A stretch of 8,199 bases of DNA, from positions 1 to 8,199 of the forward strand of contig MNUO01000007.1 of the NCBI GenBank assembly GCA_001871015.1, written 5' to 3'. Shown here in pieces: positions 1,363-7,701 of this stretch. Origin of the DNA: Candidatus Desantisbacteria bacterium CG1_02_38_46. Lineage in GTDB: Bacteria; Desantisbacteria; UBA1551; UBA1559. Under the pieces are notes generated by a model. The model did no database searches. It was not told the origin of the DNA and was given only the letters and a program-made list of their open reading frames with translations. Each line of letters begins with the position of its first letter. The stretch's first letter is position 1. Both the position numbers and the translations under genes were made by a program.

Positions 1363-1396
1363 CGGGGCACCCCGATGTTACCATCGGGGTCGTGCC
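1363..1396. repeat. palindromic hairpin in the lepA-ogt spacer
   Basis: A 9-bp inverted repeat, ACCCCGATG (1369-1377) and CATCGGGGT (1382-1390), flanks a TTAC loop. Outer GGCAC (1366-1370) and GTGCC (1392-1396) could alternatively extend the stem around a bulge, and GGGG-CA-CCCC (1364-1373) is a competing small palindrome. The segment is much more GC-rich than the neighbouring DNA. No T-tract follows on either strand, so it does not look like a classical intrinsic terminator. A partial copy of the adjacent repeat unit (CACTTGCAGA, 1351-1360) precedes it, so it belongs to the same repeat cluster. Confidence 0.75.
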
Positions 1397-1449
1397 ACTA
1401 CTTGCAGACCAAGGTCTGCCACTACTTGCAGACCAAGGTCTGCCACTAC
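1394..1449. repeat. 24-bp tandem repeat with internal palindrome, 2.3 copies
   Basis: Two identical 24-bp units occupy 1394-1417 and 1418-1441, and the first 8 bases of the unit recur at 1442-1449. Each unit contains the inverted repeat GCAGACC-AA-GGTCTGC (1404-1419 and 1428-1443) joined by the linker CACTACTT. There are no variable spacers, so it is not a CRISPR array. It sits between the lepA stop and the ogt start and probably belongs to a dispersed intergenic repeat family. Only the copies seen here can be confirmed. Confidence 0.85.
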
Positions 1450-1482: not shown

Positions 1483-3366
1483 CTATATTTTTAATATGCT
1501 CAGAAATGCTTCCTGTGGAATTTCGACTCTGCCAATCATCTTCATTCGCTTTTTACCTTCCTTCTGCTTTTCCCATAATTTGCGTTTTCTGGTGATGTCT
1601 CCACCATAACATTTGCCAGTGACAAATTTACGCAGTGCAGGAATGGTTTCTCTGGCAATTATTTTTCCGCCAATTGCTGTTTGAATTGCCACTTCAAACA
1701 TGTGGCGTGGAATCAATTCCTTCAGTTGTTTTGCCAGTTCTCTTCCTCTGTGGTCCGCATTATCCCTGTGTACAATGAAAGACAGCGCATCTACTCTGTC
1801 TCCAGCTACCAGCACATCCACTTTCACCAGGTCCCCGAGCCTATAATCTAACACTTCATAATCCAGAGATGCATAGCCGCTTGAGATAGATTTTAACTGG
1901 TCGTAGAAATCCAGAATCATCTCGCCTAACGGCATTTCATAATCTAAATACACCTGTGTTTCATCCATATACTTCATATTTTTGAAGATACCCCGTTTTC
2001 GCTTTAATACGAGGTCCATAACATTACTTACATATTTTATCGGACTTATTATCATCACTTTTATGTATGGTTCTTCAATTTTAACAATTGAACCTGGTTG
2101 AGGCATCTTCGCTGGATTGTCAATTTCTACCGGACCATTATGAGTGATTACGCGGTAGATGACACTGGGCATAGTAAGAATCAATTCGAGGTTGTATTCC
2201 CGTTCAAGCCGTTCTTTGACAATATCCATATGAAGTAGCCCCAGGAACCCACAGCGCAATCCCGGACCGAACGCAGGAGAATCTTCAACGGTATAGGTAA
2301 AAGATGCATCATTAAGGCTCAATTTTTCCATAGAACCCTTCAGCATTTCAAAATCACCGCAACTTACAGGATAAATACTGGCAAAGACCATTGGTTTTAC
2401 TTTTTTATATCCGGGTAAAGGTTTAACTGCTGGTCTGTCCGGATGCGTAACAGTATCTCCGATTTGTGTGTCGCGAATATCCTTGATGTTTGCAATAATA
2501 TAACCGACTTCTCCACTGGAAAGTATATTTGTTTCAATCATCTTACGGGGTTCAAAAACTCCAACTTTAATGACTTCATATGTTTTTCCAGTGGACATTA
2601 ATTTGATTTTTTCACCCTTCCTGACTTTTCCTTCCATTACTCTCACATAGACGATTACACCTTCATAGGGACTGAAGGAGGAGTCAAAGATGAGGCATGC
2701 CAGTGGATTTTTAGATGAACCTTTTGGTGGCGGAATTTTTCTGACAATTGATTCCAGGATTTCCTTGGTGCCCTGTCCATTCTTGGCACTGGCAAAAATA
2801 ACATCGTCGTGCATTCCGCCCACCTGACTCACTATCGTGGGGTGGAGCACTGCTTCACGGGTTGGCACCCAGATTTGGCGGGCAAGCGAGGGTTGTACGC
2901 CGAGCGTTAATAACTTAATCAGCTGAGAGCTGGTACGTTCAATCTGCGCATTTGCCAGGTCAATTTTATTTATAACCGGGATAATTTTCAATTCGTGCTG
3001 TATGGCAAGGTTAGCATTGGCGATTGTCTGGGCTTCAACTCCCTGACTTGCATCCACAAGCAAGATTGCTCCTTCACAGGAAGCAAGGCTGCGGGAAACT
3101 TCATAACTGAAGTCAACATGGCCGGGCGTGTCAATCAAATTCAAAGTGTAATCGTTTCCATCGTCGGCTTTGTATATAATCCTTACTGCTTTTGCCTTGA
3201 TGGTAATACCACGCTCCCGCTCTAAGTCCATAGAATCCAGTATCTGTTCCTGCATATCCCTTTTCTCAACCATACCGGTCATTTCAAGGATGCGGTCAGC
3301 AAGGGTGGATTTTCCATGGTCAATATGTGCAACAATGCAAAAATTTCTAATAAATTCATTTTCCAT
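1483..3366 (-). CDS. lepA: elongation factor 4 (LepA), ribosome back-translocating GTPase
   Basis: Translational GTPase acting on the ribosome. All G motifs are present: G1 AHIDHGKS (13-20), G2 region RERGITI, G3 DTPGH (79-83), G4 NKID (133-136) and G5 SAK (193-195). These are followed by the EF-G-like domains ([49 protein letters not shown]) and the LepA-specific C-terminal domain ([61 protein letters not shown]). It has 627 residues against about 600 usually. The excess is a block of about 28 residues between G4 and G5 (V157-G184), which is GC-rich at the DNA level and reported separately. The start ATG lies one base after the HAD stop codon (TGAGATG), so translation is probably coupled to that gene. 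The C-terminus is intact. Confidence 0.97.
2815..2898 (-). repeat. GC-rich in-frame insertion inside lepA (G4-G5 region)
   Basis: These 84 bases encode residues V157-G184 of LepA, between QLIKLLTLG and [11 protein letters not shown]. In ordinary LepA proteins those segments join almost directly through a short D/E-rich turn. By hand count 52 of 84 bases are G/C (62%), whereas the next 84 coding bases downstream have 36 (43%). On the coding strand it has nested inverted segments: GCCCGCC against GGTGGGC (one G-T mismatch) and TGGGTG against CACCCCA (one extra base). GGCG occurs at both edges and could be a short target duplication. It looks like a palindromic intergenic-type repeat inserted without breaking the frame, but a lineage-specific protein insertion remains possible. 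Confidence 0.55.
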
Positions 3367-4993: not shown

Positions 4994-5365
4994 TTAATTA
5001 TGGCCATATTTTAAAAGTGTCCTGCGTCTGTGTGCTGATTTCCTGTGGCGTGCTTTTTCTATTTCCTTGAGCCACTTAGATGTCCGGGGAGAAATTCGCA
5101 TCTCAATTTTATCCACAAGTTCACGCAGCGCAAGGAATCTGTTTATGCTGCGCTTGCGGTCTTTTTGCATCCGCACCTGAATTCCAAGCGGCGGATAGCT
5201 CAATCTCACACAGTTGGCTGTCTTGTTGATTTTCTGCCCACCCTTTCCACCGCCGCGGATAAACTGTTCTTCAATATCTGAGATATCAATTTTTAAACGT
5301 TCTATGCGTTCACGTAATGTCGCAACTTTTGCAGGAGATACATCAAATAATTCATTGAAATTCAT
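4994..5365 (-). CDS. stand-alone GGQ release-factor-like protein (RF-1 domain; ribosome rescue candidate)
   Basis: Small cytoplasmic protein of 123 aa from the preferred start. It holds only the class-I release factor catalytic domain: RGGGKGGQKINKTANCVRLSY carries the GGQ that triggers peptidyl-tRNA hydrolysis, followed by GIQVRMQKDRKRSINR and helix LALRELVDKIE. The tail is very basic (KARHRKSAHRRRTLLKYG), as in ArfB/YaeJ and the mitochondrial C12orf65 (mtRF-R) group, where it reaches into the ribosome. Codon-recognition domains are absent, so a role in rescue of stalled ribosomes is inferred. The exact family (ArfB or C12orf65-like) is unclear, hence no symbol. An upstream ATG at 5389 is in frame, but it has no ribosome binding site and falls near the predicted transcription start. 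The start at 5365 (MNFNELFDVSPAK) is therefore preferred. Confidence 0.85.
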   Translation of the reverse strand: MNFNELFDVSPAKVATLRERIERLKIDISDIEEQFIRGGGKGGQKINKTANCVRLSYPPLGIQVRMQKDRKRSINRFLALRELVDKIEMRISPRTSKWLKEIEKARHRKSAHRRRTLLKYGHN

Positions 5366-5393
5366 ATGTGTATTATTCTTGAGCAGCATAATT

Positions 5394-5428: not shown

Positions 5429-6523
5429 TTAATATTTTTTTTCGCTAAATACTATTTTTTTATCTTTATCAAACTCATATTCAAAATATTTCACAGGTTG
5501 ACACTTAGCTTTAAATTCGCTATTAAACTTTGGCAGTAGAATTTTTGATAATTTATCGGTATCTTCTTCATTGTTTTCTGAAGGTTTTGGCAATACAATT
5601 GTGGGATATAAATTTTCAGGTTTAGTGCCGTTTTCAGAACCGTTCAAATACTCAAGAGACCATTTTACATATCTTTCCAATTGATAGCAAATTCCGAGGT
5701 CTATGACTGTTTTTAATTCTATCAGTCTAAACCCTCTATTTGGACTATTTACAATAGTGAAAATATCTATCTTTTGCATCCCAACACCACAAAAAACTTC
5801 ATTGCCTATCCAATCTATCTCATTGCTTTTGCCGCAAATTTGAGCAAAAAATGTATTGTCAAACTTTTTTAAACCAGCATTTTCAGAAAAATATGCTTGC
5901 AAATATGTTTCCACTCTTCTTTTTCTATATATAATTTTTTCTATGTTTGGTATGTTTGCTTTGCTTTTATCATATTGAAAAGAACTATCTGTTTTTATAA
6001 TTTTACCTTTTTCCCAAGAAAATCCTCCAGCAGGATCCAAAAATTTTCTATTGTTTTTATTTCTTATTAGTTCAACCAATTTATTAGCTTCTTTGGGAGT
6101 GACAGGAGTACAACCACGACCTCCTTTGAGTTTTCTGTAAATTAGACTCCAGATAATATCTCTGGGATTATCTGGAAGTTTTTCCAATGCATCCCACTCA
6201 TCAATTGGTTGGGAGTACACTTCTTCTGGTTCAATGAAGACTCTATACAGAAGTTTTTTCTTTAGCCTTCCGTTGCAGAAGTTATCTTTATCATAATATA
6301 CAATTTGCTTGCCATCTGAGTCAATATTCTTTTTGATCTTGAATATTCCATAGAAACCAACTCCTTCAAAATAGAATATTACTCTATCCCCAGCCCGAAC
6401 TCTTTTTATATCTGCCAAAAGACTGATATTATTATCTTGTTCTCCAGAGCTTGTGCCCGCAAACATATATTCTAAGTGCGCTGGAAATGTATTTTCATTA
6501 ACTATAAAAACATGTGTAGTCAT
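5429..6523 (-). CDS. putative restriction endonuclease: EVE/PUA-like domain plus NucS-like PD-(D/E)XK nuclease
   Basis: Protein of 364 aa with two recognisable parts. Residues 3 to about 65 (HVFIVNENTFP…LADIKRVRAGDRVIFYFEGVGFYGIFKI) have the strand pattern and the 'V-x-x-GD-x-V-x-FY' core of EVE/YTH/PUA-like domains, which in other nucleases read modified bases. A conserved-looking linker, IIWSLIYRKLKGGRGCTP (123-140), follows. The C-terminal half holds a PD-(D/E)XK core: KID with D253, then RLIELK (E269, K271), then CYQLERYVKWSLEYL. The Q-x-x-RY helix is typical of the NucS/DUF91-like branch. It follows the methyltransferase with a 1-nt stop/start overlap (TAATG) and its own AGGAG, so it is probably the restriction partner of that enzyme. 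Recognition sequence and cleavage type cannot be told. The EVE call is by motif only; the nuclease call is firmer. Confidence 0.75.
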   Translation of the reverse strand: MTTHVFIVNENTFPAHLEYMFAGTSSGEQDNNISLLADIKRVRAGDRVIFYFEGVGFYGIFKIKKNIDSDGKQIVYYDKDNFCNGRLKKKLLYRVFIEPEEVYSQPIDEWDALEKLPDNPRDIIWSLIYRKLKGGRGCTPVTPKEANKLVELIRNKNNRKFLDPAGGFSWEKGKIIKTDSSFQYDKSKANIPNIEKIIYRKRRVETYLQAYFSENAGLKKFDNTFFAQICGKSNEIDWIGNEVFCGVGMQKIDIFTIVNSPNRGFRLIELKTVIDLGICYQLERYVKWSLEYLNGSENGTKPENLYPTIVLPKPSENNEEDTDKLSKILLPKFNSEFKAKCQPVKYFEYEFDKDKKIVFSEKKY

Positions 6524-7701
6524 TATTTCTCCTTTTTGAATAATAAAATATACTCATGTTTAAAAATATAAAATCCACCGACCAAAGCACGGTACTGCCA
6601 GAGTTCTTTTTGGTTTCGCTTGCCTCGTGTTTCTTCAAAGTTTTTCACAATAATACTTTTTAGGGAATAGCCTCTTTTCATTACTTCTTGCATAGTATAA
6701 AAACCAAGTGGTATCCATTCGCCTCTGGAGTATTTGTCGCCAATCACAATTGCGAGGTATCTTCCTTTTTGAAGTATGGGATAGGTATTATCAATTACTT
6801 CACCAAACATTTTCAAAAAAGATTCGGTAGATGGAGCATTTGATAAATCATCAGCGCTGTTGCTAAACTTAATAATGTTATGATATGGAGGATGCATAAT
6901 CAATAATTGGGTTTCTTTGATTCCCTGTTTTTCAAGTAATTTCTTTAAATCTATCTTGCGACTGTCTCCTGTTTCGATAATAGTTTTAACATTAAATGGG
7001 TTCTGCTCTTTATTGATAAGTGCTTTTGCTTTTTCTGCAACTTCAGGATTTAATTCTAAACCAATGCCATTTCTGCCAAGTCGCTTACACTCAATCAATG
7101 TAGTACCACTACCAACAAATGGGTCAAGTACCCATTCACTTTTCTTAGTATATCTTAACATCATTTGATGAGGGATTTGTGGAATAAAATTACCCCAATA
7201 CCATCCCATATGTGCACCAGATGCATCTCTTTTATCGAGAACCCAGAGGCTGTCGGTAAGGATATCGGTATATTCTTTCCAGCGATTTAAATTTATATCG
7301 TTAATTTTGCTTGTTCTGATTTTTTCAACACCTTTTTTAAGACGCTCAATATAGTAATGGGCTCGTTCAAAAGTCTGAGATTGAGATATTTGACTTAATT
7401 CTTCTAGTAGAGCACCTTTGTTCATTATTATTGTGTCGCCATTACCGTCTATGTTCATAATTCCAATTTTATCTGACTTGGGAAAATTGACAATTTGCTG
7501 AATAAGTCCAATTTCATACCTCAAAGAAGATTTGTCAGATAAGTTTTGTAGTTCTTCTATCTTCCCCAGTAATTTTGTTTTGTTTATAATTACGCTCTTT
7601 TTCCAAGATAGTGGGTCAGATTCATATTCATTAAATAAAACATGTTCTTCTAATTTCCAATTTTTTGTTCTACTTTTATCAGTTTTCTTATACCGCTTCA
7701 T
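6523..7701 (-). CDS. putative R-M DNA methyltransferase (N4-cytosine/N6-adenine type)
   Basis: SAM-dependent amino-methyltransferase of 392 aa. Motif X/I is clear: IPHQMMLRYTKKSEWVLDPFVGSGTT, with the SAM-binding loop DPFVGSGTT (193-201). Motif II is GLELNPEVAEKA (214-225), motif III GDSRKI (245-250), and catalytic motif IV LLIMHPPYHNIIKFS, with HPPY (270-273) where classical enzymes have DPPY, NPPY or SPPY. Downstream strands (RYLAIVIGDKY, then YILLF) complete the fold. The order X-I-IV is gamma-like, but no C-terminal target-recognition domain follows. The unrecognised N-terminal 150 residues may hold it. The start has a strong GAAGGGAG 5 nt upstream. It is 38 nt downstream of the EamA gene, and its stop overlaps the start of the nuclease gene. 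The target base cannot be decided. Confidence 0.85.
   Translation of the reverse strand: MKRYKKTDKSRTKNWKLEEHVLFNEYESDPLSWKKSVIINKTKLLGKIEELQNLSDKSSLRYEIGLIQQIVNFPKSDKIGIMNIDGNGDTIIMNKGALLEELSQISQSQTFERAHYYIERLKKGVEKIRTSKINDINLNRWKEYTDILTDSLWVLDKRDASGAHMGWYWGNFIPQIPHQMMLRYTKKSEWVLDPFVGSGTTLIECKRLGRNGIGLELNPEVAEKAKALINKEQNPFNVKTIIETGDSRKIDLKKLLEKQGIKETQLLIMHPPYHNIIKFSNSADDLSNAPSTESFLKMFGEVIDNTYPILQKGRYLAIVIGDKYSRGEWIPLGFYTMQEVMKRGYSLKSIIVKNFEETRGKRNQKELWQYRALVGGFYIFKHEYILLFKKEK
6529..6533 (-). promoter_or_regulatory. Shine-Dalgarno of the nuclease gene inside the methyltransferase gene
   Basis: AGGAG on the minus strand lies 5 nt before the nuclease ATG and within the last codons of the methyltransferase gene, whose stop shares a base with that ATG (TAATG). 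The nuclease can thus be translated by coupled re-initiation after the methyltransferase, a common way to keep modification ahead of restriction. Confidence 0.75.

Follow-up and report, generated by a model that had tools for sequence, protein, structure and literature searches.

The lepA gene of the candidate-phylum bacterium studied here raises the question of how elongation factor 4 came to carry a block of extra residues in its G domain, and whether that block arose as protein or as DNA. The window analyzed, 8199 bases in length, is contig C125 of a MAG (hereafter G000) of 1.73 Mb in 133 contigs, 87.8% complete. The relevant features of the gene are the following:

1483..3366, minus strand: lepA, the gene for elongation factor 4, which contains the insert; intact, 627 codons encoding 627 amino acids
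2959..2970, minus strand: G4 motif NKID
2815..2898, minus strand: in-frame insert of 84 bp, encoding exactly V157-G184 (28 codons)
2782..2790, minus strand: G5 motif SAK

A preliminary description of this DNA had placed some 28 extra residues, V157-G184, between G4 and G5; these corresponded exactly to positions 2815-2898, and alignments agreed. With the closest solved LepA, that of Aquifex (2ywe, E 1.4e-218), the alignment stopped at residue 156 of both query and chain and restarted at residues 186 and 157, respectively; the excess between NKID and SAK was about 27-29 residues. The window protein and 29 LepA sequences from the genome collection were aligned with MAFFT. No residues were present at the block position in any of the 28 proteins from outside the order, so that the expected absence from related LepA proteins held for other lineages. 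It did not extend to G001, the only other genome of the same order in the collection (the remaining genomes share only the domain), whose LepA carries at the same place a shorter, different insert, CCAGCATCTTCGGGCATCCAGCATCCAACATCCAGCAT, a degenerate array of the heptamer CCAGCAT.

Base composition and symmetry were also as previously described. The block contains 61.9% G+C (62% had been counted), as compared to 44.0 and 42.9% in the adjoining 84-base stretches (43% had been given for the following one) and 42.2% in lepA as a whole, and its value was equalled or exceeded in 20 of the 8116 84-nt windows of the whole sequence. The inverted repeats reported in it were found as GCCCGCC / GGTGGGC, within 2872-2883 and 2816-2825, together with two inner hairpins. 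The 90-nt RNA of the block folded no better than its own dinucleotide shuffles (z -1.07). That the block is more than a chance sequence is concluded not from folding energy but from the occurrence of repeat copies elsewhere.

Such copies were revealed by BLAST of the block against its own genome, which matched C69:9783-9826 with 89% identity over 44 nt (E 4.7e-10) and, less strongly, some other places; used as a query, the C69 copy matched the YggS gene on C41 (83% over 46 nt, E 3.2e-7). The repeat family so defined, named F4, is represented in the window by the following elements:

2825..2868, minus strand: copy of the F4 repeat, nested in the insert, GTGCCAACCCGTGAAGCAGTGCTCCACCCCACGATAGTGAGTCA; matches the rhamnosidase gene copy with 89% identity over 44 nt
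2842..2858, minus strand: F4 hairpin 1 GTGAAGCAGTGCTCCAC
2828..2841, minus strand: F4 core hairpin 2 CCCACGATAGTGAG, the module common to all F4 copies

Three full copies are known, all in frame within genes, namely those for LepA, an alpha-L-rhamnosidase (LPTRGAVLHPTKVGRVPE) and YggS (VSTHGVVLHPAEAGRVWE). A covariance model built from them, R1, recovered its three source copies in G000 at E 1e-16 or better, as expected for model input, and additionally matched ValS on C110 (E 1.2e-5) and an intergenic site on C52 (E 0.05). The search of the block against the rest of its genome, proposed earlier as a check, thus did find other DNA copies, with R1 E-values of 8.6e-18 to 1.2e-5 within G000. Patterns of the core palindrome matched further genes, encoding ValS, a PreT/GltD-like oxidoreductase (C131), QueE (C71), HycI (C110) and a DsbD-like protein (C24/C35), the last assigned by eye and the other host-gene families by Pfam; the DsbD-like protein on C35 probably starts on C24. 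The same patterns read backwards, as a control, had no match in G000. Besides the C52 copy, an intergenic one lies at C110:4341, and that at C131:52449, where an ORF just begins, is probably intergenic too. Copy number is low, about 12. A YacP/NYN copy (C66) was rejected as a member, being in a different register and too degenerate to count. In the core stem 90.7% of cells are paired, with a G-C to A-U exchange at one pair in three of nine copies, and no Rfam family matched. YggS and PreT show a gap at the F4 copy with respect to solved structures; insertion is less certain for the ValS copy, because the linker there varies in length.

Outside G000, R1 gave nothing convincing in 40 relatives, a match in G029 (E 0.025) being taken as chance. 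A degenerate pattern of 22 bases, run on 84,980 GTDB species in a collection that may not include the source genome itself, produced two matches, about as many as expected by chance according to our own estimate. As far as sampled, F4 appears from these searches to be lineage-specific.

The dispersal of F4 bears on the most ordinary explanation of the block, a protein insertion peculiar to the lineage, produced by local duplication or drift and evolving as protein, with no mobile DNA involved. The extra residues of G001 LepA at this position would be in line with it, as the loop would then grow easily in this order. However, those residues derive from a different repeat, the CCAGCAT heptamer, and F4 has DNA copies in unrelated genes and between genes. 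Moreover, the F4 peptides differ mostly by non-synonymous changes: comparison of the copies gave pN/pS values of 0.7-2.2 on 42 bases, which are small numbers. Non-synonymous changes are not depleted between them, and the F4 peptide is therefore not conserved as such. Phylum-wide conservation of the protein block combined with a lack of other DNA copies, which the preliminary description had set as the sign of an ordinary insertion, was not what was found. A protein origin further needs the matches to be due to chance; given an E-value of 4.7e-10 and the outcome of the null controls, that is very improbable, and a protein origin is considered largely refuted.

F4 accounts for the inner part of the block. 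The 5' part, CTCGCTTGCCCGCCAAATCTGG, is not present in other F4 copies. When the 44 bp of F4 (2825-2868) were set aside and the flanking arms joined, they scored 49 against a repeat of G001, GACGCACGACGCACAGCTTGCCCGCCAATCTTGCTGGGCGGGACGCACGACG, the maximum in 2000 shuffles being 29. These arms are:

2869..2898, minus strand: outer palindromic repeat, 5' arm GTACAACCCTCGCTTGCCCGCCAAATCTGG, which together with the 3' arm matches the G001 repeat GACGCACGACGCACAGCTTGCCCGCCAATCTTGCTGGGCGGGACGCACGACG
2805..2824, minus strand: outer palindromic repeat, 3' arm GGTGGGCGGAATGCACGACG, in which the final 10 bases possibly belong to the original lepA coding sequence

The comparison with relatives proposed earlier did give a match, in the outer arms rather than in F4. 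In G001 the GACGCACGACGCACAGCTTGCCCGCCAATCTTGCTGGGCGGGACGCACGACG repeat occurs at about 20 places, including in-frame positions inside ValS and a PabA/TrpG-like protein; no other clear copy of the outer repeat was seen in G000. The PabA/TrpG-like glutamine amidotransferase of G001 (L122 836-1762) has a long repeat-encoded extra stretch just before its GVQFHPES motif. The best reading of the LepA block is one palindromic repeat nested in another, both in frame. The earlier proposal of an in-frame palindromic repeat like those of Rickettsia stands in that copies exist elsewhere and other conserved genes are hit, and is amended in that two nested repeats are seen rather than one. Where the insert ends can be fixed only to within a few codons, because several outgroup LepA proteins have acidic residues at ATGCACGACG; these last ten bases of the 3' arm could equally be read from the sequence as ancestral lepA codons (M-H-D). 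No empty lepA site was found among the available genomes, the sole same-order relative having a different repeat there, and G001 offers no clean empty site to define either the ends of the F4 insert or a target-site duplication.

Combined, these results favor, with a probability of roughly 0.87, the reading that two small palindromic DNA repeats entered lepA, together form the block, and were kept since the frame was unbroken. The outer repeat (GCTTGCCCGCC...GGGCGG; about 20 places in G001) would have entered the loop between the helix following NKID and the strand leading to SAK, and F4, of 44-45 bp and two hairpins, would then have entered the loop of the outer repeat, an order that we deduce from the nesting. 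Neither insertion would have introduced a stop or a frameshift, at a site presumably tolerant of extra residues. The repeats, probably mobile, would be non-autonomous and might be moved in trans by a Y1 (IS200/RAYT-like) transposase that the genome encodes. Selection would purge insertions that break proteins, and families open in all frames would persist in genes and stop-rich ones between genes.

The relation of open frames to location was examined in a 220-kb set of stretches from G000 that is biased to contigs with F4 matches, counts of non-F4 families in it not being genome-wide. Family F1, with two of six frames open, was intergenic in 22 of 22 cases in this biased sample. F4 and F6, open in all six frames (for F4, in the consensus), lay mostly inside ORFs, and F5 and F7, with six and five open frames, were often intergenic all the same. 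Open frames alone fail to explain location, because F5 and F7 break the rule. An abundant intergenic palindromic family, ATCAGGACTAAAGTCCTGAGTTAC, often tandem or within TGTCAGGTCTTGACAAATGACA repeats, was also seen in the sample (L033 13223-13319 and elsewhere).

Within genes, F4 occurs in either orientation with its register constant, and the register relative to the core was identical in all nine clear coding copies. Were three registers equally likely, a single one would be expected by chance about once in 6500. This identity is treated as a lead, because copies may be non-independent owing to gene-to-gene copying or to a bias for benign peptides. It is conceivable, albeit unlikely, that F4 is a register-locked family spreading mainly via coding genes, by insertion directed by codon phase or by gene-to-gene copying, with nested insertion enlarging core-enzyme loops throughout a nearly unsampled lineage.

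Repeats inside genes were not limited to F4. Clean in-frame gaps with respect to solved structures were observed at residues 146-186 of UvrA (41 amino acids), 124-148 of TsaD (25 amino acids) and 178-216 of Asd (39 amino acids versus 6 in the structure). The UvrA insert, about 105 bp long, is itself a repeat and recurs almost unchanged on C109 and C51; repeats of type F3 lie inside TsaD, Asd and an OppD/DppD-like ATPase, and the interior of PlsY holds an F2 repeat. G000 thus behaves much like Rickettsia, with palindromic repeats within many conserved genes and frames unbroken. At five sites (LepA, the ValS linker, HycI, UvrA and the PreT linker), G001 has a different repeat-like sequence from that of G000.

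Some individual genes are heavily loaded. In QueE (C71, L041 11902-12777), a small enzyme, an F6/F4 insert, KRDSPRPAVAGAPTTSSVNSDGPQGQS, is accompanied by a C-terminal F2 repeat (ICHLSRPDT) and two apparent heptamer-like stretches (MSHESCVMS and IQYPGSNIYHS). The DsbD-like protein (C35, L115 741-2930) has four tandem F3-encoded repeats (SSSRVNSATT) plus its F4 copy, and its N-terminus on C24 seemingly has another F4 copy directly after the signal peptide. In the PreT/GltD-like gene of G001 (L084/L080, C54:5187-6205) a different palindromic repeat occupies the same linker as in G000, and a frame shift splits the gene into two conserved ORFs, as might result from a pseudogene, an assembly error or recoding.

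The spread of inserts over many loci allowed two further explanations to be weighed. Repeats often cause misassembly, and in a MAG of 133 contigs that is 87.8% complete they might have been misjoined into genes during assembly or binning. Yet both gene halves align around in-frame inserts, at many loci and on different contigs, and G001, a second genome, independently behaves alike; an artefact of this kind has next to no probability. The other explanation is that removal of the repeats from the RNA, or skipping of them in translation, as with introns or bypassed hairpins, leaves a protein of normal length. Their richness in hairpins would suit this, as would the frame-shifting PreT insert of G001, around which both gene halves are nonetheless conserved. 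But the clear gene-internal copies of G000 are all open without a stop, which neither bypass nor splicing needs, and a single register is kept throughout, making such skipping highly improbable.

If the repeats are indeed translated as part of LepA, their effect on the protein depends on where they lie. The preliminary description had located the insert near the nucleotide-binding loop; this was not sustained, as the known Ras-like topology predicts that the site is at the other edge of the sheet. The insert enters the loop that joins the helix behind G4 to the strand leading into G5, and this loop should lie at the sheet edge away from the nucleotide. That is the position of the G' subdomain in EF-G, and EF-G matches in the search against solved structures break off in the same region as the LepA insert. 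With the nucleotide expected on the other side of the G domain, tolerance by LepA is less surprising. An AlphaFold2 model of the window LepA alone had a mean pLDDT of 32.9 and was set aside.

The rest of the protein speaks against inactivation. The G motifs and the entire C-terminal part are intact, with no stop or frameshift, and identity to G001 LepA is 78%. Outside the insert, the comparison of the two gave a pN of 0.136 and a saturated pS of 0.841, and this part of LepA is under strong purifying selection. An alternative is that the insert has inactivated lepA or is making it a pseudogene, the damage being tolerated as LepA is dispensable in some bacteria; deletion of lepA in E. coli is without obvious growth defect (PMC4245954). 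The intact motifs and the identity to G001 tell against this, and genes expected to be essential (valS, tsaD) also carry inserts, so that inactivation was judged very improbable. Under the composite-repeat reading, LepA with its insert would presumably stay active. Its tolerance is made plausible by a guanylate kinase of Rickettsia that contains an RPE insert: the enzyme is translated and remains active, although its substrate affinity is altered (reviewed in PMC2229807).

Possible means of movement were sought in tags and transposases. One pair of tagged repeats adjoins lepA itself:

1393..1440, minus strand: tandem pair of 24-bp repeats with GTAG tags, GTAGTGGCAGACCTTGGTCTGCAA, belonging to family F3 and lying a short way downstream of lepA, with other copies of the family spread over the genome

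GTAG stands directly before a stem in F3 repeats and in four F4 copies (HycI, C110:4341, C24 and C35), and is absent from the F4 copies in LepA, rhamnosidase, YggS, PreT, QueE and ValS. GTAGTGG was counted 35 times in the 220-kb sample, where shuffled sequence gave 16.4, and a stable hairpin follows 26 of these sites. Y1 (IS200/RAYT-like) transposase genes are present in G000 as two ORFs and one fragment, none of which is flanked by F3, F4 or related repeats. Elsewhere in the window, positions 15-259 form a 245-bp stretch with a second copy on C77 (L036 18671-18916), possibly a transposase remnant; positions 4994-5389 encode a small putative protein with a GGQ motif that resembles a class I release factor domain (ArfB-like); and positions 5429-7701 hold adjacent genes for a DNA methyltransferase lookalike (DPFVGSGTT motif) and a partner, a possible restriction-modification pair.

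The earliest palindromic repeats documented within genes came from obligate intracellular Rickettsiales; REPs were later found within genes of some other bacteria. The RPEs of Rickettsia lie in frame inside conserved genes and have equivalents in Wolbachia (PMC3767692, PMC2229807, PMC10969869); in R. japonica different RPE groups (RPE-4/6/7) lie near the same place in orthologues (PMC3767692). The families of G000, likened to RPEs by description, share with them the in-frame position in conserved genes and the presence of different families at the same place in related genomes. Unlike RPEs, they show a core of about 45 bp (F4) versus about 100-150 bp, few copies and apparent nesting in LepA; their host is not in Rickettsiales, and its order has one other genome in the collection as against the densely sampled Rickettsiales. 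GTAG- and CGTC-tagged REPs have been found inside genes of several species, including uvrA (Di Nocera and colleagues 2013, PMC3733652), and GTAG before a stem characterizes the REPs whose movement is attributed to RAYTs (PMC3733652). G000 is similar in the GTAG of F3 and four F4 copies, in intragenic insertion, also in uvrA, and in having Y1/RAYT-like transposases, and dissimilar in that the LepA copy lacks GTAG and the Y1 genes lack flanking repeats. Stop-free versions of the 107-bp Correia/NEMIS element and of ERIC are fused inside genes, unlike a stop-rich 155-bp version (reviewed in PMC2229807). The G000 repeats, likewise stop-free inside genes, are shorter, and a terminal TA or target-site duplication is not established for them. 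Nematomorpha mitochondria have long perfect palindromes in protein genes (PMC6649704); the inverted repeats in G000 genes are by contrast short, imperfect and members of dispersed families.

By its presence at several unrelated loci and the preserved frame of its gene-internal copies, the family qualifies as a protein-coding palindromic repeat. In-frame palindromic repeats are an established kind, comprising RPEs, intragenic REPs and Correia/ERIC elements. The earlier suggestion of a perhaps undescribed element accordingly applies to the families, which appear to be new, and not to the kind, known beyond Rickettsia from intragenic REPs (PMC3733652). In the literature covered, which included few subscription papers, nothing relevant on such repeats in candidate phyla was found, and to that extent no precedent is known for the families, the lineage, the probable nesting in LepA or the occupation of five sites in parallel in the two genomes.

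Several unrelated families occur in LepA, ValS, UvrA, TsaD and Asd of a lineage from which two genomes, both of one order, were available here; this suggests that the process recurs independently, and repeat insertion may be a general route by which surface loops of core proteins gain residues. That F4 is read in one register is a specific oddity, and one open to testing. As the five sites hold different repeats in the two genomes, these genomes constitute natural replicates for asking which loops tolerate insertion and whether the inserted peptides gain function.
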